A stretch of DNA of 64,000 nt from Streptomyces sp. NBC_01723 (GTDB taxonomy: Bacteria > Actinomycetota > Actinomycetes > Streptomycetales > Streptomycetaceae): positions 1,414,001-1,478,000 of the forward strand of contig NZ_CP109171.1 in NCBI RefSeq assembly GCF_036246005.1, given 5' to 3'. A program made the position numbers and the translations under genes. Positions 37,116 through 49,794 of the stretch are shown piece by piece. Each line of letters begins with the position of its first letter. Positions within the stretch are counted from its first letter, which is position 1. The notes beneath the pieces were generated by a model. That model was not told the DNA's origin and made no database searches. It worked only from the letters and a program-made list of their open reading frames with translations.

Positions 37116-39095
37116 TCAGACCTGCACCCGCTCCTCGACCACCTTCGCGATCTTCGCGATGGCCTCGTCGACGGGGATGCCGTTCTCCTGGGAGCCGTCG
37201 CGGTAGCGGAAGGAGACCGCGTCGTTCGCCATGTCCTCGTCGCCCGCGATGACCATGAAGGGCACCTTCTGTTTCTGGGCGTTGCGGATCTTCTTCTGCA
37301 TCCGGTCGGAGGAGGTGTCGACCTCGACGCGCAGGCCCGCGGCCCGGGCCTTCTCGGCGAAGTCGTGCAGGTACGGCACGTGGGCGTCGCCGATCGGGAT
37401 GCCGAGCGCCTGGACGGGGGCCAGCCAGGCCGGGAAGGCTCCCGCGTAGTGCTCCAGCAGGACGCCGAAGAACCGCTCGATGGAGCCGAACAGCGCCCGG
37501 TGGATCATGACGGGCTGCTGACGCGAGCCGTCTGCGGCGGTGTACTCGAGGCCGAACCGCTTCGGCTGGTTGAAGTCGACCTGGATGGTCGACATCTGCC
37601 AGGACCGACCGATCGCGTCCTTGGCCTGGACGGAGATCTTCGGGCCGTAGTACGCGGCGCCGCCCGGGTCCGGAACCAGCGGCAGGTTCTGCTTCTCGGC
37701 GGCCTGGCGCAGTGCCTCGGTGGCCTCCGCCCAGTCTTCCTCGGAGCCGATGAACTTGTCGGAGTCGTCGCGGGTGGACAGCTCCAGCTCGAACTCGTTC
37801 AGGCCGTAGTCGCGCAGCAGGTCGAGGACGAAGGTCAGGAGCGTGTCCAGCTCCTGGGGCATCTGCTCCTTGGTGCAGTAGATGTGCGAGTCGTCCTGGG
37901 TGAAGCCGCGCGAGCGGGTCAGGCCGTGCACGACACCCGACTTCTCGTACCGGTACACGGTCCCGAACTCGAAGAGCCGCAGCGGCAGCTCGCGGTAGGA
38001 GCGGCCGCGGGACTTGAAGATCAGATTGTGCATCGGGCAGTTCATCGCCTTGAGGCGGTAGTTCTGCTCGTCGAACTGGATGGGCGGGAACATGCCCTCC
38101 GCATAGTGCGGCAGGTGCCCGGAGATCTCGAAGAGGTGTTCCTTCGAGATGTGCGGGGTGTTCACGAACTCGTAGCCGGAGACCTCGTGCCGACGGCGCG
38201 AGTAGTCCTCCATGACCTTGCGGATCACCCCGCCCTTGGGGTGGAACACCGCGAGGCCGGGACCCAGCTCGTCGGGGAAGGAGAACAGATCCAGTTCGGT
38301 TCCGAGCTTGCGGTGGTCGCGCTTCTCAGCCTCGGCCAGGAACTCCAGGTACGCCTTCAGCTCGTCCTTGGTCGGCCATGCGGTGCCGTAGATGCGCTGA
38401 AGCTGCGGGTTCTTCTCACTGCCGCGCCAGTAGGCGGCGGCCGAGCGCATCAGCTTGAAGGCCGGGATGGCGCGGGTGGTCGGCAGGTGCGGTCCCCGGC
38501 ACAGGTCCTTCCAGCACAGCTCGCCGGTCTTGGCGTCGAGGTTGTCGTAGATGGTCAGCTCACCACTGCCCACCTCGGCGTCGGCGCCGTCGGCGGCCTG
38601 CGCGGCGTTGCCCTTGAGGCCGATCAGCTCCAGCTTGTACGGCTCCTTGGCCAGCTCCTCGCGGGCGGCCTCGTCGCTGGTGACGCGGCGCGAGAACCGC
38701 TGGCCGCGCTTCTGGATCTCCTGCATCTTCTTCTCGATGGCCTTGAGGTCATCGGGGTGGAAGGGCTTCTCGACGTCGAAGTCGTAGTAGAAGCCGTCCT
38801 TGACCGGCGGGCCGATGCCCAGCTTGGCCTCGGGGAACAGCTCCTGCACGGCCTGCGCCATGACGTGCGCGGTGGAGTGCCGCAGGATGTTCAGGCCGTC
38901 CTCGGAGGAGATCTCGACGCCCTCGACGGTCTCGCCGTCGCCGACCTCGTAGGCGAGGTCCTTGAGCTCACCGGCCACCCGCGCCGCGACGATCGAGCGC
39001 TCGCCGGCGAAGAGCTCGGCGGCCGTAGTGCCCGTCGTCACCACGCGTTCTTCCCGCTCGGAATCGCGTTGGATGATCACACGGACGTCTGACAC
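37116..39095 (-). CDS. thrS: threonyl-tRNA synthetase
   Basis: A 659-residue class II enzyme from a GTG at 39095 with AGGAGAG upstream. It has the TGS domain, the editing domain with the [10 protein letters not shown] motif and [10 protein letters not shown] zinc-type region, the catalytic core with [11 protein letters not shown] and [16 protein letters not shown], and the anticodon-binding C-terminus. All four parts are complete. No T-box leader is visible in the 111 bp before the gene. Confidence 0.98.
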
Positions 39096-39206
39096 CGGTC
39101 TCTCCTGACTGAAGGTGGGGCCGCGGCGCCATACCGGAGCGCACGCATGAGGGCGATCGTACCGACCCGGACCCGTGCACCGCGAAATCATTCCCGGCGG
39201 CGGCCC

Positions 39207-41994: not shown

Positions 41995-42003
41995 CTTCCC
42001 GGG

Positions 42004-42075
42004 TGGGCGATACTGGGTTCGAACCAGTGACCTCTTCGGTGTGAACGAAGCGCTCTCCCACTGAGCTAATCGCCC
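42004..42075 (-). tRNA. tRNA-Val (CAC)
   Basis: 72-nt tRNA with acceptor stem GGGCGAT/ATCGCCC, A discriminator, anticodon stem CTTCG/CGAAG and loop TTCACAC, giving anticodon CAC. The CCA end is not encoded (CCC follows). It is identical to the copy at 49723-49794. Confidence 0.97.
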
Positions 42076-42088
42076 GGGAACGCACCGA

Positions 42089-42118
42089 ACAATACAGGGC
42101 CCGGCGCGCTTCCATCAA
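42089..42118 (-). promoter_or_regulatory. promoter of tRNA-Val (CAC), first copy
   Basis: On the minus strand TTGATG (42113-42118) and TATTGT (42089-42094) are 18 bases apart and the tRNA begins 14 bases later. The -35 element overlaps the last codon of the SRPBCC gene. The match to a housekeeping sigma promoter is good but untested. Confidence 0.55.
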
Positions 42119-42573
42119 ACCGCTTGCCGACCGCCTTCCAGGTACGCGGCGAGGCCGCGCCGCCCCGCCCGCATCATCAGCCGGTGGTTGGCCCGGAACA
42201 GCGGCCGCCCCGGCACGGCGAGCCGGCGCAGCAGCGGCTTGCGCACGTCGACCTCCTGGTCGTAGCGGGCGAGGGTGCCGGATCCGCGCGGGGTGACCGT
42301 CCAGCGCGCCCATCCCTCCATGTCGCCGCGCATCGCGACCTCCAGGACCCCGGCCGCCGGGTCGCGGTGCCCCTCGTACAGGGTCGCGGTGAGGTCGTAC
42401 GGGAGCAGGGAGCGGAAGCGGAGGAGTCCGCTGGTGTCGTCGAGCCGGGTGACCTCGCGCACCTGCGGCCACCAGCGGGGATAGTCCTCGATCCGTTCCA
42501 GCGCGCGGTAGACGTCCGGGGCGGGCGCGGGCAGCGCCCACAGGCTGCGGAATCGGTACTGGTTCCAGTCCAC
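42115..42573 (-). CDS. SRPBCC (polyketide cyclase/dehydrase-like) protein
   Basis: A 152-residue START-like domain protein beginning MDWNQYRFRSLWALPAPAPDVYRALERIEDYPRWWPQV, which is read here in short as the usual SRPBCC opening helix and YPRWWP loop. Such domains bind hydrophobic ligands; the ligand here is unknown. The GTG start at 42573 has no good ribosome site. It ends where the tRNA-Val promoter begins and lies 39 bp downstream of the PL26 gene; whether it belongs to that cassette is uncertain. Confidence 0.8.
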   Translation of the reverse strand: MDWNQYRFRSLWALPAPAPDVYRALERIEDYPRWWPQVREVTRLDDTSGLLRFRSLLPYDLTATLYEGHRDPAAGVLEVAMRGDMEGWARWTVTPRGSGTLARYDQEVDVRKPLLRRLAVPGRPLFRANHRLMMRAGRRGLAAYLEGGRQAV

Positions 42574-42612
42574 CTGTGGAGTGTGCCCGTACCCGCCCGT
42601 GTCACGTGCCGT

Positions 42613-45336
42613 CTAGGGCATCCTGTCGCCGAGGAGTGCCAGGTTCTCGATGGCGGCGAGGCCGTAGAGGGCGGTGTCGTTGGTGGACACCCAGCTCGCC
42701 TCGCTGCCCGGCACCAGGGCGACGGGGCCGGTCAGCTTCTCCGTCGTCCAGGGCGCCGACTCCTTGTAGCCGTCGGAGTCGTAGAACTTGGCCCACGCGC
42801 GCGTGGCGAGCTTCTCGTCGCCGGTCCGCACGGCCGCGTAGGCGTCGAGGCGCGAGTGGCCCTGGAAGAGGATGAGGCTGCCGAAGTCCTTGCCGTACCG
42901 GGCCGCTTGTTCGGCCTTGGAGGCGTTGAAGTAGCGGCAGTAGTCGTAGTACGCCTCGTGGAACGCGGGCATGTCGACGAGGTCGATCAGCTCGGCGCAG
43001 AGTTCGCCCAGGCCGAAGACGGCCGACAGGTGGGACACCTCGACCTTCGGCGTGTCGGCGACGGCGAACCTCCCGGTGTCCAGGTCGTACAGGCCGCTGC
43101 CCTGGACGAAGCCGTTGGGCTGGGCGGCGATGGTCTCCATGGTGGACAGGACGCGGTCCCGGGCCTTCTCCCACTTGGGTCCCCTGCGTTCCCACTCGGT
43201 CAGCCAGGCCGACGCCAGGCCGCTCCAGTCGGTGCCGAAGCCGATCGACAGGGCGTGCCGGTCGGGTGTGTACGGCTCGGTGCGGATCTTTCGCAGCGGG
43301 TCGAGGGCGAGGAACGTCTCGTCGGAGTCGACGTTGGCGTGCATGAGGTCGCCGACGCGTTCGTCGGCGGTGAGGAAGTAGTAGAAGCGGCGGTAGGTGG
43401 TGTTGGCGATGCGTTGCTGCTTGGCGCTGTCCGCGTAGTGCTGGACGCCGTGCCGGGTGCCGAGGCCGGCCCATTCGCCCAGGTGGTAGACGTCGACCTC
43501 GCCGGTGTGCCGGGTCATGGCCTCGGCGAAGCGGAAGATGTCGGCCCGGCCGGAGCGCAGGTAGGCGTACCAGAGCCACAGGTCCGGGGAGAGTTCGGAG
43601 TTGTCCCAGGCGTAGCCGCCCACGTCGTAGCGCCACTGATGGCGGGCGGTGTCGTAGGAGTGCATGACGTCGCCGTGGTCCCAGAAGCCGTACCAGCGTC
43701 GCTGCTCCACCTGGTCCTTGTAGTAGGTGAAGAGGAAGTCGAGGTGGTCCTCGATCCTGGCCTTGGCGGGCGTGGAACGGTCGGGTTCGGAGTAGAGGCC
43801 GGGACCGAAGACCCGGGACCTGATGAGCTGTGCGGGCGGGGCGGCGAGCTGCGGCGGTGTCCGCACGGCCCGGACCTGTTCGGCGAGCGTCTCCGCGCTC
43901 GGGGTGGCGGCGTTGGCCCAGAACATCAGCTCGCTGGTGCGAGCGATGCCGTACGGGGTGCCGAAGCCGGGTTCGTAGTCCTCGTAGGTGATGTTGAGCC
44001 CTTCGAGCTGTTCGGCGTAGCTGTCCTGGCCCATGCCGTCGTGGTAGAAGCGCAGGTCCATGGGCTGGGCCTCGGGTGACCAGAGCCAGAGGGTGACCTC
44101 GGCCGCGTCGGTCCGGGCGTCGCGGATGTCGAGCTGGGCGGGGAACTTCTCCCAGAAGTCGCGCAGGCCGAAGGAGAGGCCGCCGCTCACGCCGCCGACG
44201 TAGCCGAAGCCGGAGGCGCGTCGTCCGCCGCCGGCGCCGATCCAGCCGTGGCCCTTCCTGGTGCGCTTGCGGACGGTGAAGCCGTCGGCGGACAGCTGGG
44301 AGAGGGTGTGGTCGCCCCACTCGGGGATGTACTGGAGCCGGGTGGTGACGCGCTGGTCCCAGGTGGCGGGGTCGGGCAGTTGCTCACCGGCGAACTGCGC
44401 CGCCTGTACGGCCGCCCCGGGGTCGCGGCGCAGTCCGGTGATGCCCTTGACGGCCTCGCGCAGCAGGCCGGTGCCCTCGCCGCCGAGGCGGATGTGGCGG
44501 TCGTAGGACTCGTCGCGCATCGGGACGGTGAAGCGGACGCCGAGGCCCCGGACGAAGTCGCCGTTCGCCTTCCCGGGCTCCTGCTTCCCGTCGAACGTGA
44601 TGGTGTGCACCATGCGGAAGGAGTCGGCGCCCGCGTAGAAGTAGAGGCGGACGGAGAAGGGCAGCAGGCCGCGGCGTCCCTTGCGGTGCTCGCCGTCGAC
44701 ACGGACCACGGCGCGGACGGGCCCCTCCTGTTCCACCTTCACCTCGTGGATCGCGCCGTCGAAGCGTTCGGACCTGACCGTGCCCTGCTCGTCGTCCTCG
44801 ATCTCGGGCCTGCGCAGCACGACGAGGCGGCCGTTCCTGGCGATCTCGGTGGAGCCGCGGACGACCGACTTGACGAGCGTCGATCCCGAGGTGCCGATCC
44901 GCGCGGTGATGACACCGGTCGATATGTCGATGATGCCGCCGCGCCGGTCAACGGTGATCTTCCGGGTGGGTGCGGCGGGCGTGCCGGCGGCCAGGGTGAG
45001 CGCGCCGGTGCCCGAACCGACGGCGTGCGCGGTCCACTTCAGGGAGCCGTCCGGCCACTGGGCGAGCGGCCAGGACTGCACGGGCACGTCCTTGCCGTCG
45101 GCGTCCGTGACCGCGAAGGACTGGTCCGCCCGGAAGGTGCCCCGGGGCCAGGGGACGCCTACGGTGGAGCCGGGTGCGGCGCCGAGGCCGCCGTCCTCCA
45201 GCCAGGTCAGCGTGACGGGGCTGTCGTCGGCCACCGCGGCCTGCGCGTTCTTCGTGCCCAGTGCCCAGCTGAACTGGGCGGCGGCGCCGGCGACGGCGGC
45301 CGCCTTGAGGAGGGACCTGCGGGGGATGCGGGACAT
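42613..45336 (-). CDS. Tat-exported PL26/YetA-like exo-rhamnogalacturonan lyase family protein
   Basis: A 907-residue secreted protein. The N-terminus has a twin-arginine signal (PRRSLLKAAAVAG) with a likely cleavage after AQA at about residue 32. The body begins with a beta-rich domain (VTLTWLEDGG, GVPWPRGTF, SLKWTAHAV) and contains a long alpha/alpha-type region, the architecture of PcRGLX/YetA proteins (PL26), which release disaccharides from rhamnogalacturonan ends. This family assignment is from recalled signatures. The ATG at 45336 has GAAAGGAAGG before it. The DUF624, permease and binding-protein genes upstream on the same strand support a glycan-use role. Confidence 0.8.
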   Translation of the reverse strand: MSRIPRRSLLKAAAVAGAAAQFSWALGTKNAQAAVADDSPVTLTWLEDGGLGAAPGSTVGVPWPRGTFRADQSFAVTDADGKDVPVQSWPLAQWPDGSLKWTAHAVGSGTGALTLAAGTPAAPTRKITVDRRGGIIDISTGVITARIGTSGSTLVKSVVRGSTEIARNGRLVVLRRPEIEDDEQGTVRSERFDGAIHEVKVEQEGPVRAVVRVDGEHRKGRRGLLPFSVRLYFYAGADSFRMVHTITFDGKQEPGKANGDFVRGLGVRFTVPMRDESYDRHIRLGGEGTGLLREAVKGITGLRRDPGAAVQAAQFAGEQLPDPATWDQRVTTRLQYIPEWGDHTLSQLSADGFTVRKRTRKGHGWIGAGGGRRASGFGYVGGVSGGLSFGLRDFWEKFPAQLDIRDARTDAAEVTLWLWSPEAQPMDLRFYHDGMGQDSYAEQLEGLNITYEDYEPGFGTPYGIARTSELMFWANAATPSAETLAEQVRAVRTPPQLAAPPAQLIRSRVFGPGLYSEPDRSTPAKARIEDHLDFLFTYYKDQVEQRRWYGFWDHGDVMHSYDTARHQWRYDVGGYAWDNSELSPDLWLWYAYLRSGRADIFRFAEAMTRHTGEVDVYHLGEWAGLGTRHGVQHYADSAKQQRIANTTYRRFYYFLTADERVGDLMHANVDSDETFLALDPLRKIRTEPYTPDRHALSIGFGTDWSGLASAWLTEWERRGPKWEKARDRVLSTMETIAAQPNGFVQGSGLYDLDTGRFAVADTPKVEVSHLSAVFGLGELCAELIDLVDMPAFHEAYYDYCRYFNASKAEQAARYGKDFGSLILFQGHSRLDAYAAVRTGDEKLATRAWAKFYDSDGYKESAPWTTEKLTGPVALVPGSEASWVSTNDTALYGLAAIENLALLGDRMP

Positions 45337-45436
45337 GGCCTTCCTTTCGTGTGACAGGGCTCTTGCGACAGGGCATGAGCGGCATGGGCATGACAGACAG
45401 AACTGTGGGTGGGGCACCGCGGCCGGGACGGGCCCG

Positions 45437-46048
45437 TCAGCGGCGCCGGTGGCGCTCCTCCACGGCGACGGCAGCCGCCGCCACCGCGCCCAGGACGGCG
45501 ACCGCCAGCGGTGCGCTGAACCAGGCGGAGCAGACCACGAGGGCCAGTCCGCCCACGAGGAGGAAGGAACCGGCGGGGTCGAGCACGGTGCGCCGGGCGG
45601 CACCCGCGAGCAGCGAACGCCAAGAGGCACCCGGGTGCCAGGCCGCCGCCGCGCGCAGTCCCGCGACGGCCGCGCCGATGAGGGCCATGACCCCGACGGC
45701 ACCGACGAAGGCGCCGCCCGGCAGTCCGTCCCGGACCGCCCGCACGTCCACCCACACCACCGCCAGGGCGGCCCATCCGCCGACCCCGACGAGCCACCCG
45801 CGGCGCGCCGCGGCCCGGAAGTCGGCCGCGAACTCCCGCAGGCCGCCGCGCTCGTGGGCGAGCCGGCGTCCGAGGTGGCGCGCGCCGGCCGCGAACGCGG
45901 CGGGGTAGGTGACCAGCGGCAGGGCCGCCACCGCGATCCACACGCCGGTGAGCAGGCACTCGGCGAACAGGGCGAAGCCCTCGGCGAACCGCGACTCGCC
46001 CCGCTCCCCCGCCCGCTCCGTACGGGCCTTCGCACGCGCCTGGGTCAT
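45437..46048 (-). CDS. DUF624 (YesL-like) membrane protein
   Basis: A 203-residue protein with four or five hydrophobic segments (about 25-50, 85-105, 112-132 and 160-185) and the GESRFAEGFALFAECLLTG opening. The DUF624 family includes Bacillus YesL, encoded in a rhamnogalacturonan cluster, and such genes often accompany sugar ABC permeases. Its function is not known. It starts 12 bp after the second permease gene and is followed by the lyase gene 100 bp on. Confidence 0.8.
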   Translation of the reverse strand: MTQARAKARTERAGERGESRFAEGFALFAECLLTGVWIAVAALPLVTYPAAFAAGARHLGRRLAHERGGLREFAADFRAAARRGWLVGVGGWAALAVVWVDVRAVRDGLPGGAFVGAVGVMALIGAAVAGLRAAAAWHPGASWRSLLAGAARRTVLDPAGSFLLVGGLALVVCSAWFSAPLAVAVLGAVAAAAVAVEERHRRR

Positions 46049-46060
46049 GATCGGCTCACC

Positions 46061-46951
46061 TCAGCCCTTCAGGCCGGACGTCGCCATGCCGTCGATCAGA
46101 TAGCGCTGGAAGGCCAGGAAGAAGGCGAGCACGGGCAGCAGCGCGACGAGGGACATGGCGATCATGCCGCCGTAGTTCGCCAGCCCTTCCTGGTCCACGA
46201 ACATCTTCAGACCGAGCGAGACGGTGTACTTGCCGGGTTCGTTGAGGTAGATCAGCGGGCCCATGAAATCGTTCCAGGAGTTGATGAAGGTGAAGATCGC
46301 GCTGGTGATCAGGGCCGGACGGCACAGCGGGAGCACGATCGACCAGTAGATCCGGAAGTGCCCGCAGCCGTCGAGGCGGGCCGCCTCGTCCAGTTCCCTG
46401 GGCAGGTTGCGCATGAACTGGACCATCAGGAAGACGAAGAACGCCTCGGTGGCCAGGTACTTCCCCAGCAGCAGCGGAGTGTACGTGTTGATCATGTCCA
46501 GGTTGCGGAAGAGCACGTACTGCGGGATCAGCAGCACGTGGTACGGGAGCAGCAGCGTGCCGATCATCAGCGTGAACAGCAGATTGCGCCCGGCGAACCT
46601 GATCTTCGCGAAGGCGTAGGCCGTGAGCGAGCAGGACACCACGATCCCGATCACGGAACCGACGGCCAGGAACAGCGAGTTGAGGAAGAAGGTGGAGATC
46701 GAGATGTCCGCGATGCCGTCGGCGAGGCTCGTGTAGTTGGAGACGATCGGGTCGCCCGGGAAGAGGTCCAGGCTGCCGACGATGTCACCGCTCTCCTTGA
46801 AGGAGCCGCCGACGACCCAGAGCACCGGGTAGAGGATCACCGCGAGGATCGCCAGCGACCCGAGGTGCCAGGCGAGCGAACCCGGCAGCCGGCGCCGCAC
46901 GGCCCCCTTCGTGGCGGTGGTCGGCGTGACCTCCGTGGCCTGCGCGCTCAT
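46061..46951 (-). CDS. carbohydrate ABC transporter permease, second subunit
   Basis: A 296-residue permease with six membrane segments and the cytoplasmic EAA loop at ELDEAARLDGCGHFRIYWSIVLPLCRPAL. It belongs to the LplC/YtcP/MalG class. The ATG at 46951 overlaps the stop of the first permease (ATGA). No ATPase gene is present in the cassette; in Streptomyces the shared ATPase MsiK usually energises such systems. Confidence 0.92.
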   Translation of the reverse strand: MSAQATEVTPTTATKGAVRRRLPGSLAWHLGSLAILAVILYPVLWVVGGSFKESGDIVGSLDLFPGDPIVSNYTSLADGIADISISTFFLNSLFLAVGSVIGIVVSCSLTAYAFAKIRFAGRNLLFTLMIGTLLLPYHVLLIPQYVLFRNLDMINTYTPLLLGKYLATEAFFVFLMVQFMRNLPRELDEAARLDGCGHFRIYWSIVLPLCRPALITSAIFTFINSWNDFMGPLIYLNEPGKYTVSLGLKMFVDQEGLANYGGMIAMSLVALLPVLAFFLAFQRYLIDGMATSGLKG

Positions 46952-47937
46952 CGGCCGCCCTCCTCGTAGTGCACCCAGCGTTTCTGGGACCAGAACAGCA
47001 CCGCGGTGACCAGGGCGACCGCGACCAGCAGCATCCACGCCATGGCGGAGGCCAGGCCCATGCGGCTGTTCTCGAAGCCCTGGACGTACAGGTAGCAGGT
47101 GTAGACCATCGTGCCGTCCGCGGGACCGCAGGCGTTGCCCCCGGCGCCGCCGCCGACGATGTAGGCGGAGCTGAAGATCTGGAACGAGTGGATCGTCTCC
47201 AGCAGGACGTTGAAGAAGAGCACCGGGGAGATCATCGGGAGGGTGATGTTCCAGAACTGGCGCAGCTTGCCCGCCCCGTCGACGTCGGCCGCCTCGTACA
47301 GCTCGCGCGGCACCTGCTTGAGGCCGGCCAGGAAGATGACCATGGGGGCGCCGAACTGCCAGACGGTGAGTGCCACCAGACTGTAGATGATCAGTTCCGG
47401 GTCGCCGGTCCAGCCTCCGGCGCCGATCCCGAAGAACTGCTGGGTCCGGTCGACGACCGCGTCGTCCGAGAAGATCGCCTTCCACACGATGGCGATGGAG
47501 ACGCTCGCGCCGATCAGCGAGGGCGCGTAGAAGGCGGCCCGGTAGAAGGCCTGCCCGCGCCGCTTCTGTGCCAGCAGCAGCGCGACGCCGAGCGCCGCGA
47601 GCAGCTTGATCGGCGTACCGACGACGACGTACCAGAGGGTGATCCGCACCGAGTGGCGCCAGCGGGGGTCGCCGAACATCTCGGAGAAATTGTCCAGGCC
47701 GATCCACCTGGGCGCGTCGAACAGGTTGTAGTCGGTGAACGCGAAGTAGAGCGAGGCGACCATCGGTCCCGCCGTCAGCAGCAGGAATCCGGCGATCCAG
47801 GGGGACATGAAGAGGTAGCCGGCCAGGTTCTCCCGACGGCCCCGCCGTTTCTGCGCGGCGGAGCGCACAGGCTTCTCCGGGGCGGGCCGCGGCCGGGATT
47901 CCCGGGCCGGGCCCGCCATCGCGGGGGCGTGTGTCAC
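46948..47937 (-). CDS. carbohydrate ABC transporter permease, first subunit
   Basis: A 329-residue permease from a GTG at 47937 with GAGGGGACG before it. A basic N-terminus of about 38 residues precedes six membrane segments; the EAA loop is ELYEAADVDGAGKLRQFWNITLPMISPVL. It is the MalF/LplB/YesP-type partner of the next gene and lies 13 bp after the binding-protein gene. The open frame to 48129 upstream is only a shadow. Confidence 0.92.
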   Translation of the reverse strand: MTHAPAMAGPARESRPRPAPEKPVRSAAQKRRGRRENLAGYLFMSPWIAGFLLLTAGPMVASLYFAFTDYNLFDAPRWIGLDNFSEMFGDPRWRHSVRITLWYVVVGTPIKLLAALGVALLLAQKRRGQAFYRAAFYAPSLIGASVSIAIVWKAIFSDDAVVDRTQQFFGIGAGGWTGDPELIIYSLVALTVWQFGAPMVIFLAGLKQVPRELYEAADVDGAGKLRQFWNITLPMISPVLFFNVLLETIHSFQIFSSAYIVGGGAGGNACGPADGTMVYTCYLYVQGFENSRMGLASAMAWMLLVAVALVTAVLFWSQKRWVHYEEGGR

Positions 47938-47950
47938 GGTGCTCGTCCCC

Positions 47951-49253
47951 TCAGCCGGCGAGAGCCGTCTTCGACTCGGTGAAGAACTGCTCGACGGCGT
48001 CCCCGACGGAGCGTGAGCCGAGCGCCATCTCCTCGGCGATGCGCAGGAAGGCGGCCTCGCAGATGTCCGCGCCGTTCGGGTGCGGGGTGATCGGCTCCAG
48101 CACGCCCGACTCGACCAGCGACTCCTCATAGGCGGCGATGGCCTTGTTCACCGGGTCGGTCGGCCGGTAGGCGTCGTACTGGGCCTGGGTCGTGGGAACA
48201 CCGCGGTCATATCCCATGATCTTGGCGACCTCGGGGTCGTGGACCATGAAGTCGATGAACTGGGCGACCTCCTTGGGATGCTGGGTGCGCTTGTAGGCGC
48301 TCAGCATCAGCGAGCCCAGGTACTGGCCGGTCTTCTTGCCGTCCGTGGTGGGGATCGGCGCGAGTCCGTACTCGCTCTTGCCCTCCGCCGTGTAGCGGAC
48401 GGTGAAGTTGTCCCAGGTGAACTCACTGCCGGCCAGTTCGGCGGAGAGCGCCGACTTGGGCTTGATCTGGGCGACCTTCTTGGGGTCGGCGAAGAGGCCG
48501 GACCGCACGGCCTTGTCCGCCTTGGTCCACCAGGCGGTCAGATCGGCCTCGGTGAAGCCGAGTCCGTCCTCGGTGAAGAATGCCTTGCCGTTCTGCCGCA
48601 GGTACAGGTCGTAGAGGTACATGACTCCGTACATGCCGCTGTCACCGGCGCGGCCCGTGCGGTCCCGGACCCTCGTCATCGCCTCGTCGAAGTCGTCCCA
48701 CGTCCAGCCCTGTTCGGGCCTGACGCCGGCCCGGGTGTAGACGGGCTTGTCGATGACCAGGGCCATGGAGTTCGAACCGACGGGCACGCCCAGGAGTTTG
48801 CCGTCGATCTCGCCGAACTTCTCCAGGCCCGCGCGGAATCCGTCCATGGAGAGGTTTCCGGCCTCGACCTGCCCGCCGAGGTCGAGCAGGACATTCTTCG
48901 CGTCGTATTTGCGAAGGAATCCGATGGCATTCTGGAAGACGTCCGGCGGATTCCCCCCGGAAGCCTGCGTGTTGAACTTCTTCCAGAAGTCGGTGTACGG
49001 CTGAAAGTCCGTCTTGACCTTGATCTTCGGGTACTTCTTCTCGAAGAGCGCGATGGTCTTGTTGATGCGCTCGGCCCGGTCCTCGGCACCCCACCAGGAG
49101 TAACGGATCGTCACCGAACCGTCTCCCGAAACCGCTCCCGCCGCCGCACGCGGTGGCCGCGGCCCCCAGCCCCGTGACGGCCAGCGAAGCTCCCGCCGCC
49201 TTGAGGACCGTGCGCCTCCCGACCTGCCTCCGCGCATTCCCGCCCTGCTGCAT
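47951..49253 (-). pseudogene. solute-binding lipoprotein of the sugar ABC system, with an apparent one-base frameshift
   Basis: The ATG at 49253 has GGGGAGG five bases upstream and opens a Tat-type lipoprotein signal (GRRTVLKAAG) with the lipobox GAAATAC, Cys36. The mature protein (SGDGSVTIRYSWWGAEDRAE onward, family 1 extracellular sugar-binding) is in a different frame, running to 47951. Dropping one base from the AAA run at 49129-49131 joins the two into CGGGSGSGDGS with no other change, giving 433 residues. This is either a sequencing error or a real inactivation. Only the signal-peptide frame has a ribosome site. Confidence 0.85.
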
Positions 49254-49285
49254 ACGAGCCTCCCCGCGACGCGGCCTTCGCCTCA

Positions 49286-49308
49286 TGAATCGTTTCAAGT
49301 AAGCGCTT
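49286..49308. promoter_or_regulatory. LacI-type operator-like palindromes upstream of the sugar cassette
   Basis: TGAATCGTTTCA (49286-49297) is close to the TGAAACGTTTCA form bound by LacI-family regulators, and AAGCGCTT (49301-49308) is a perfect palindrome with a central AGCGCT. They lie 33-55 bases before the binding-protein ATG, where a repressor would block transcription. No LacI-family gene is in the window. Confidence 0.5.
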
Positions 49309-49679
49309 GCTGGCACAAGGTACGGAGGGCCCGGAAGCTCGTCAACGATTAGGACAGGAATTTACGGGCGCCCGGCGCGACGAGCCGGAGGCGCCGTTTC
49401 GGGGGCGGCGTCGGAAGCACCCGAGAACAGCCAGGTGGGCGCCGCGCGACCGACGGACCGAACACCGGGGAGCCCGCCGGCACGCGGGTCGCGGAAGGTC
49501 ACGGTTGGATGACGGCACACGGAAGCGGAACCGTCGCGCGAGCGCGCCGGCGGACACCGGGAGCGACCGGCGGACCCGGGGCGGACCCGCCGGGGGCGGA
49601 CACGTACGCACCAGGTGACGGGCACGTACGTACCGGGCGGCGGACGCCGACCCGCGCACCGGACGACGACACGACAGAA

Positions 49680-49709
49680 CGGCCCGGCTCACGATCGTGA
49701 GCCGGGCCG
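49680..49709 (-). terminator. 30-base perfect palindrome after tRNA-Val (second copy)
   Basis: A 15-base arm beginning CGGCCCGGCTCACGA is followed at once by its complement, so the RNA can form a 13-bp stem with a small loop. It starts 14 bases past the tRNA 3' end. Confidence 0.75.
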
Positions 49710-49722
49710 CCTGATGATCCGG

Positions 49723-49794
49723 TGGGCGATACTGGGTTCGAACCAGTGACCTCTTCGGTGTGAACGAAGCGCTCTCCCACTGAGCTAATCGCCC
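49723..49794 (-). tRNA. tRNA-Val (CAC), second copy
   Basis: 72 nt, identical over its length to the tRNA at 42004-42075, with the same CAC anticodon and no encoded CCA. Flanking sequences differ. TAATGT about 13 bases upstream on the minus strand could be its -10 element; no good -35 was seen. Confidence 0.97.

Follow-up and report, generated by a model that had tools for sequence, protein, structure and literature searches.

Background

In Bacillus subtilis the PL26-like gene is presumably yetA, which we take to be grouped with lplABC, and among PL26 enzymes PcRGLX of Penicillium chrysogenum is represented in the PDB (5xq3). Among the open-access papers searched we found none joining rhamnogalacturonan, Streptomyces and PL26. 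As for import, the sections of PMC7596534 drawn on here describe YesO, a B. subtilis protein that binds the rhamnogalacturonan I (RG-I) trisaccharide dGalUA-Rha-Gal and contacts its unsaturated uronate through Trp20, Arg25, Asn127 and Ser286, and according to the portion of PMC5730181 used here importers of this kind are served in B. subtilis by the ATPase MsmX. With regard to chromosomal setting, the Streptomyces AICEs and islands borne on tRNA genes, as presented in the part of PMC9513070 used here, resemble the locus reported below in lying in a conserved chromosomal region with terminal tRNA genes.

This locus lies in a 64,000-nt window (the whole stretch of DNA that was analysed) of the chromosome of Streptomyces sp. 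NBC_01723 (NZ_CP109171.1, positions 1,414,001 to 1,478,000). A first-pass annotation had singled it out as a rhamnogalacturonan-type cassette bracketed by two identical tRNA-Val(CAC) genes and suggested that the cassette was inserted at, or carried with a duplication of, a tRNA gene. We consider a different history quite probable, namely that the tRNA pair marks a lasting chromosomal address from which an RG-I operon has repeatedly been lost, and at which the transporter genes of that operon have been replaced in place.

The locus and its genes

Both tRNA-Val(CAC) genes lie on the minus strand in the same orientation, copy 1 at 42002..42075 and copy 2 at 49721..49794; ARAGORN and Rfam (RF00005, 69.9 bits each) agree on them, and the direct repeat at the bracket ends is identical over 76 of 76 nt, so the bracket itself is confirmed. 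This repeat is the sole direct-repeat family in 40-52 kb (seed 14, at least 18 nt), and the window's genome (G000) holds exactly two copies of the gene at 100%, the next-best matches being three at 88%, tRNA-Val(GAC) genes in a cluster at 56.5-56.8 kb. Outside the pair stand the core flanks: on the left a DEDD exonuclease gene (exo; RNase_T, PF00929; 41210..41935, plus strand), which served as synteny anchor, and on the right the gene of a PGPGW membrane protein (PF09656; 49874..50359, minus strand). The genes in between are all read from the minus strand and encode, from promoter to end, a binding lipoprotein, two permeases, a DUF624-like protein, a PL26-type lyase and an SRPBCC protein. The last of these, a polyketide-cyclase-like gene and old resident of the interval (42115..42573; PF03364, E 9.7e-14), was absent from the first gene list. 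In agreement with the earlier remark that no integrase is visible, none was found among the window ORFs scanned by profile search; among the ORFs scanned in the interval there was neither a replicase nor traB, and no regulator gene was seen in the window's interval.

The lyase gene (42613..45336, with its ATG at 45336 placed by eye) encodes RIFT-barrel, beta-sandwich and alpha/alpha toroid domains in that order (89, 504 and 615 bits in Pfam; PF19501, PF21345, PF21346), and residues 47-913 of its product align to PcRGLX (PDB 5xq3; 886 bits, E 2.6e-265), which bears out the earlier PL26/YetA-like call. PF21346 was also matched in B. subtilis among the control genomes. The N-terminus is arginine-rich and, judged by eye, has a twin-arginine-dependent look. 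For the DUF624 (YesL)-like membrane protein (45437..46048) the earlier call holds in part: PF04854 matched 3 of 11 aligned relatives (best E 1.3e-4), and the window copy itself gave no match.

Permease 1 (46948..47937), permease 2 (46061..46951; both PF00528, starts placed by eye) and the binding lipoprotein (47951..49253; PF01547, ATG at 49253 by eye) correspond to the importer genes first reported, with two BPD_transp_1 matches and one SBP_bac_1 match. Among solved structures the binding protein is closest to YesO (5z6b, E 6.8e-46). In one representative each of the transporter types A, B and C defined below, the four YesO residues Trp20, Arg25, Asn127 and Ser286 are kept; YesO contacts 52, 75, 178-180, 284 and 287 are different in these types, Asn254 is kept only in type C within a stretch (235-260) where the alignment is unsure, and positions 172, 175 and 176, near Gal and Rha, vary between transporter types. 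No ATPase gene was seen in the operon; MsiK is the Streptomyces counterpart of MsmX. In the window strain the signal peptide and the mature part of the binding protein lie in different frames, as against one frame at eight other loci including the same-species L036, and the break may stem from a recent mutation or from an error in the assembly.

From these gene contents we infer an operon for secreted exolysis of RG-I and import of the unsaturated oligosaccharides. There is a small but real chance that it serves some other pectic or uronic polymer: the Rha- and Gal-facing contacts of YesO are mostly not kept, and no hydrolase, in particular no GH105/GH88 gene, was seen in the operon (PF07470 gave two low matches in the genome that passed the cut-off, with neighbours in frame). 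The full-length match of the lyase to PcRGLX argues against such a polymer, however, as does the fact that YesO, to which the binding protein is closest among solved structures, binds an RG-I trisaccharide in the sections of PMC7596534 used here.

The probable RG-I operon also carries a candidate control site. On the 5′ side of the binding-protein gene lies an operator-like motif, AGCGCTTACTTGAAACGATTCA (49286..49307, minus strand), in which a GCAAGCGCTT core is followed by a GAAACG-like or AAAACG-like stretch and which, we assume, resembles LacI-type operators. The motif was found at 72 of 78 loci and in all six transporter types, the other six loci ending before the site; the different transporter alleles thus appear to share one control signal. 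The genome holds one site at up to 2 mismatches, and a search at up to 3 mismatches gave no signal of a wider regulon (6 matches against 4 for the reversed control).

The tRNA pair across Streptomyces and the family

The tRNA was matched by BLAST in 294 of 295 Streptomyces genomes. When copies were counted with a pattern specific for the CAC anticodon and tallied by hand, 277 of the 295 genomes had two copies, nine had one, three had three and six had none, and a family draw of 101 genomes from 17 genera (21 of them Streptomyces) gave two copies in 86, one in seven, three in one and none in seven; the pattern undercounts, scoring none in G322, which holds two copies at 92%, and one in G352 and G363, whose loci hold two. 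A pair this widespread speaks against the proposal that the cassette was inserted at a tRNA gene. Nor was the cassette evidently carried along with a tRNA duplication: 80 loci were retrieved through the exonuclease gene and not through the tRNA, and of these 35 extend to both exo and PGPGW; every one of the 35 has exactly two tRNAs in between, with the cassette present in 23 and absent in 12. Two tRNAs likewise occur at 77 of 79 further Streptomyces loci (three at the other two), most of which were fetched by the tRNA, and at seven of seven outgroup loci. The notion that all relatives carry both tRNAs and the cassette thus nearly holds for the tRNAs but fails for the cassette, whose presence varies without regard to theirs. 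Real as it is, the tRNA bracket is nothing unusual in this family; it is old and family-wide, and not an insertion scar.

For comparison of the intervals we mapped 201 loci: the 80 fetched by the exonuclease gene (the best 80 by exonuclease match among the matches listed), 80 further Streptomyces loci (also from the matches listed, a sample that favours exact tRNA matches and smaller genomes), 40 from two later fetches, and the window. Two same-orientation tRNAs lay within the fetched stretch at 144 of these, the other 57, which were cut by the stretch or differed, being left uncounted; after identical intervals were dropped, 139 remained, 118 from the genus and 21 from outgroups. The spacer between the tRNAs of the outgroup intervals ranges from 166 to 7491 nt, with a median of 633 and an upper quartile of 677. 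Several loci depart from the usual arrangement. L153 carries a tRNA plus SRPBCC unit in tandem, its three tRNAs being separated by two spacers of 604 nt each; at L161 a third tRNA lies 3 nt past the second; and in L252, from an outgroup genus, the second tRNA-Val(CAC) points the opposite way to the first. At L057 the 10 kb that follow the exonuclease gene (L057:10724-20723) hold other genes and yielded no tRNA; possibly an element sits at the 3′ end of tRNA 1, with its far end beyond the locus.

The first-pass annotation had proposed a synteny check for strains with a single tRNA and no cassette; the single-tRNA loci that we fetched show a changed neighbourhood and not a clean empty site. In G037, G271, G156 and G120, four of the nine single-copy Streptomyces genomes (L194-L196 and L263, 15-20 kb), the tRNA stands without exo, PGPGW or cassette genes in the stretch, and L194-L196 have a distant SRPBCC gene (48-49%) on the interval side of the lone tRNA. 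Genus g5 has one copy by the pattern in all four of its genomes in the family draw, and at its loci L254 and L255 the single tRNA-Val(CAC) adjoins PGPGW, which may represent a pre-duplication state or a loss.

Entry of an island at a tRNA-Val gene, leaving a duplicated tRNA behind, would account for full-length identical tRNAs at both ends, and both the existence of single-copy genomes and the AICEs hosted by tRNA-Val genes in Streptomyces (according to the part of PMC9513070 used here) lend it some plausibility. It conflicts, however, with a pair that is family-wide and mostly without the cassette in outgroups, with the lack of an integrase among the ORFs scanned, and with the position of the SRPBCC gene, which separates tRNA 1 from the cassette and occurs in 96 of the 118 genus and 13 of the 21 outgroup intervals. 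Together with the family-wide pair, the cassette-free locus L166, which keeps both tRNAs and a remnant of the cassette (described below), led us to reject tRNA insertion. For the genus Streptomyces this model is largely refuted, and we regard it as very improbable; the pair would instead be older than the cassette.

Alternatively, the whole interval might be exchanged homologously or excised with the twin tRNAs as its ends, making the cassette an integrase-less one. The 76-nt direct repeats would suit such a process, as would the tandem unit of L153 and the third tRNA of L161, and within a genome the two copies resemble each other more than shuffled pairs do: identical pairs number 30 of 36 against a shuffle mean of 21.9 in the exonuclease-fetched set, and 13 of 19 against a mean of 4.4 in the outgroup set, in shuffles that ignore relatedness. 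The further Streptomyces loci were left out of this test, many having been picked for exact tRNA matches. The excess likeness fits gene conversion between the two copies, to judge from these identities. A crossover between the tRNAs would leave one tRNA, however, and two are kept at all 12 cassette-free loci that reach both flanks; only nine of 295 genomes have one copy, even by a pattern that undercounts; the lone tRNA of L194-L196 still has the SRPBCC gene on its interval side; and the excess divergence between transporter types ends at about 49.2 kb, short of tRNA 2. We therefore hold exchange or excision through the tRNAs to be improbable, somewhat less so than island entry.

Presence and loss of the cassette

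By tblastn, the full cassette is present in 46 of the 118 genus intervals, part of it in two and a remnant in 11, while the 59 intervals with no trace are an upper bound, as L166 and L065 were missed by tblastn yet hold scraps in finer comparison. Of the 21 outgroup intervals 20 have no cassette, and one (L236, genus g7) has part. Gene order is constant across the mapped loci, namely exo, tRNA, SRPBCC, membrane protein, (PucR, PLP enzyme), lyase, DUF624, permeases, binding protein, tRNA and PGPGW, with various genes missing and with L153 (tandem unit) and L252 (inverted tRNA) as exceptions. We rejected a hotspot for random cargo, as the mapped loci hold various parts of a single gene series in fixed order. 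In other lineages the interval also houses a large membrane protein with weak DUF2157 similarity (L054:11402-13870) and a regulator of PucR type together with a PLP-dependent enzyme of decarboxylase fold (L050:13954-17219); by eye, L256 has TetR-like and dehydrogenase-like ORFs in the interval, and L113 another ORF. Among the 80 further Streptomyces genomes, 23 have a lyase match, which by hand inspection falls within the interval in 20 (three of them fragments) and outside it in G006, G263 and G271. A PL26/YesO-type operon belongs to the tRNA address in many Streptomyces.

On the exo tree of 128 loci the cassette traces need 11 changes, and such change counts cannot tell gain from loss. The exonuclease gene of L166 is 95.3% identical to that of the window in DNA and 98% in protein, and its cassette is absent: L166 aligns with the window to 42589 and resumes at 49671, with both tRNAs kept. 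Between the tRNAs lie two scraps, one of 121 aligned bases at 72% that corresponds to 48892-49011 in the binding-protein gene and a second of 22 bases at 95% that corresponds to 49100-49121. By these alignments the L166 interval is a deletion scar and not an empty site, and a crossover between the tRNAs would have left one, where L166 keeps two. Binding-protein scraps were found at six of the eight cassette-free loci compared (L166, L044, L051, L065, L176 and L200, that of L065 being 55 bases only) and not at L100 and L193, and a ninth locus, L045, has lost the lyase alone. On this alignment evidence, the cassette has been lost repeatedly in relatives of the window strain.

Discordance of the transporter genes

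Within the operon, the transporter genes appear to have a history apart from that of their neighbours. Across 75 loci the protein distances of permease 2, permease 1 and the binding protein (SBP) correlate at r 0.94-0.97 among themselves, as against 0.38-0.48 with those of exo, SRPBCC and lyase, which in turn correlate at 0.66-0.73 with each other; DUF624 is intermediate. A cut at 20% SBP distance sorts 78 loci into six transporter types, with 32 loci in A (the window included), 27 in B, 13 in C, four in D and one each in E and F. On the transporter tree (74 rows, after removal of three repeats) A, B and D each form one clade with support of 100 and C with 55, whereas on the lyase tree (77 rows, repeats included) type requires 17 changes against a minimum of five. 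The lyase data reject A and B as clades (AU 2.9e-46 and 1.2e-10), as do exo (74 rows; AU 1.2e-36 and 4.7e-40) and thrS (the 53 rows whose loci hold thrS; AU 3.6e-52 and 5.8e-5).

Conversely, two lyase clades are rejected by the transporter data (AU 2.2e-21 and 1.4e-3). Exo rejects a lyase clade of 11 rows (p 3e-54), recovers one of 10 rows and does not reject a third (seven rows tested, p 0.42), while with thrS the rejection is strong for the first two and weak for the third (p 0.017). The clade rejected by exo is a second lyase allele group (L054, L055, L056, L102, L168, L188, L267, L052, L260, L217 and L218). It is probable from these topologies that the lyase has been exchanged too, and by the same reckoning lyase and thrS have recombined as well, so that no gene here gives a clean species tree.

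The extent of the transporter discordance can be placed approximately at 45467..49216, from divergence between types in 150-nt windows across 33 loci and from ten cross-type pairs. At matched lyase distance, the A-B excess begins at about 45467, near the DUF624 gene, and rises over the permeases and SBP; it is 0.01 at 49217-49366 and in tRNA 2, and about zero in PGPGW. A smaller between-type excess, up to 0.064, occurs left of the lyase at 41.6-42.6 kb. Nine of the ten cross-type pairs have data at 49.1-49.3 kb, and eight of these recover to 80-92% there, the exception being L262-L046 (68%, no recovery). On the left the edge of the block is more blurred, DUF624 being variable in any case. The operator-like motif, tRNA 2 and the greater part of the lyase fall outside the block, and we rejected the tRNAs as ends of the transporter exchange on the ground that the between-type excess stops before tRNA 2.

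Taken together, these comparisons make it likely that the transporter genes were swapped in place between lineages by homologous recombination. Without any exchange, the types might have diverged fast under selection or be the sorted remains of an old tandem duplication; in keeping with this, the types are deep, their within-type order partly follows the lyase tree, and a tandem ancestor is compatible with the sequence. Yet L054 is nearer to the window in SBP (87% in protein) than in lyase (80%), and L060 and L080, which are close in the lyase tree, share 88-98% of DNA positions over the lyase as against 66-80% over the mature SBP. Moreover, when 13 genomes chosen for known intervals were searched with a type-B query, each had one close copy and none had two, the next best by score being 33% identical, for which reason paralogues were rejected as the source of the types. 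With the 17 changes of type on the lyase tree also to be explained, divergence or sorting without exchange seems to us unlikely.

A further case of allelic replacement may lie nearby. The thrS gene of the window (37116-39191) is 89% identical to that of the same-species L036, the other segments compared being 93-99%, and it groups with other species on the thrS tree; thus it is probably another replaced allele. Threonyl-tRNA synthetase is reported to be the target of borrelidin, which is one possible pressure behind this replacement.

A probable lasting address and its closest counterparts

Under the history that we favour, the interval between the old tRNA-Val(CAC) pair would be a lasting chromosomal address that commonly holds a small SRPBCC gene and often a membrane-protein gene, and that holds the putative RG-I operon in many Streptomyces and, outside the genus, in at least one genome. 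The secreted PL26 exolyase would release unsaturated rhamnogalacturonyl oligosaccharides, and the YesO-like lipoprotein and two permeases would import them with a multi-sugar ATPase encoded elsewhere. Losses of the cassette would reflect repeated deletions inside the interval that spared both tRNAs, and replacement of the transporter genes would have come about by homologous recombination with ends near the DUF624 gene on one side and the binding-protein leader on the other, so that differing allele types came to work with one operator and a lyase of shared kind.

More tentatively, and with somewhat less than even confidence, the types may be old, mutually exclusive importer alleles that cross species, a multi-allelic and possibly balanced trans-species polymorphism maintained by differences in RG-I side chains or by some external pressure on the binding protein, for instance recognition by phages or competitors. 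Among the open-access papers searched we found no description of in-place exchange of the transporter half of such an operon. With one close transporter copy to a genome, and with operator and kind of lyase in common, the locus offers a natural setting for asking why bacteria swap the transporter half of a carbohydrate locus.

Among known systems, PcRGLX shares with the lyase the same three domains in the same order and a full-length match, the lyase here differing in being bacterial and in its twin-arginine-like signal (by eye). The likeness to lplABC-yetA of B. subtilis lies in the PL26-like gene, which a profile match shows to be present in the B. subtilis control genome. YesOPQ of B. subtilis (5z6b) is matched in its binding protein and two permeases and in the four unsaturated-uronate contacts kept in types A, B and C; in contrast, the other sugar contacts differ and allelic types exist here, and the exolyase paired with YesO in the sections of PMC7596534 used here is YesX and not a PL26 gene in the operon. 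Finally, unlike the Streptomyces AICEs and islands as presented in the part of PMC9513070 used here, the present interval is without integrase, replicase or traB among the ORFs scanned, and both of its tRNAs are full length and family-wide. An identical tRNA pair around a cassette therefore need not signal insertion, as here the bracket occurs throughout the family, independently of the cassette that it encloses.
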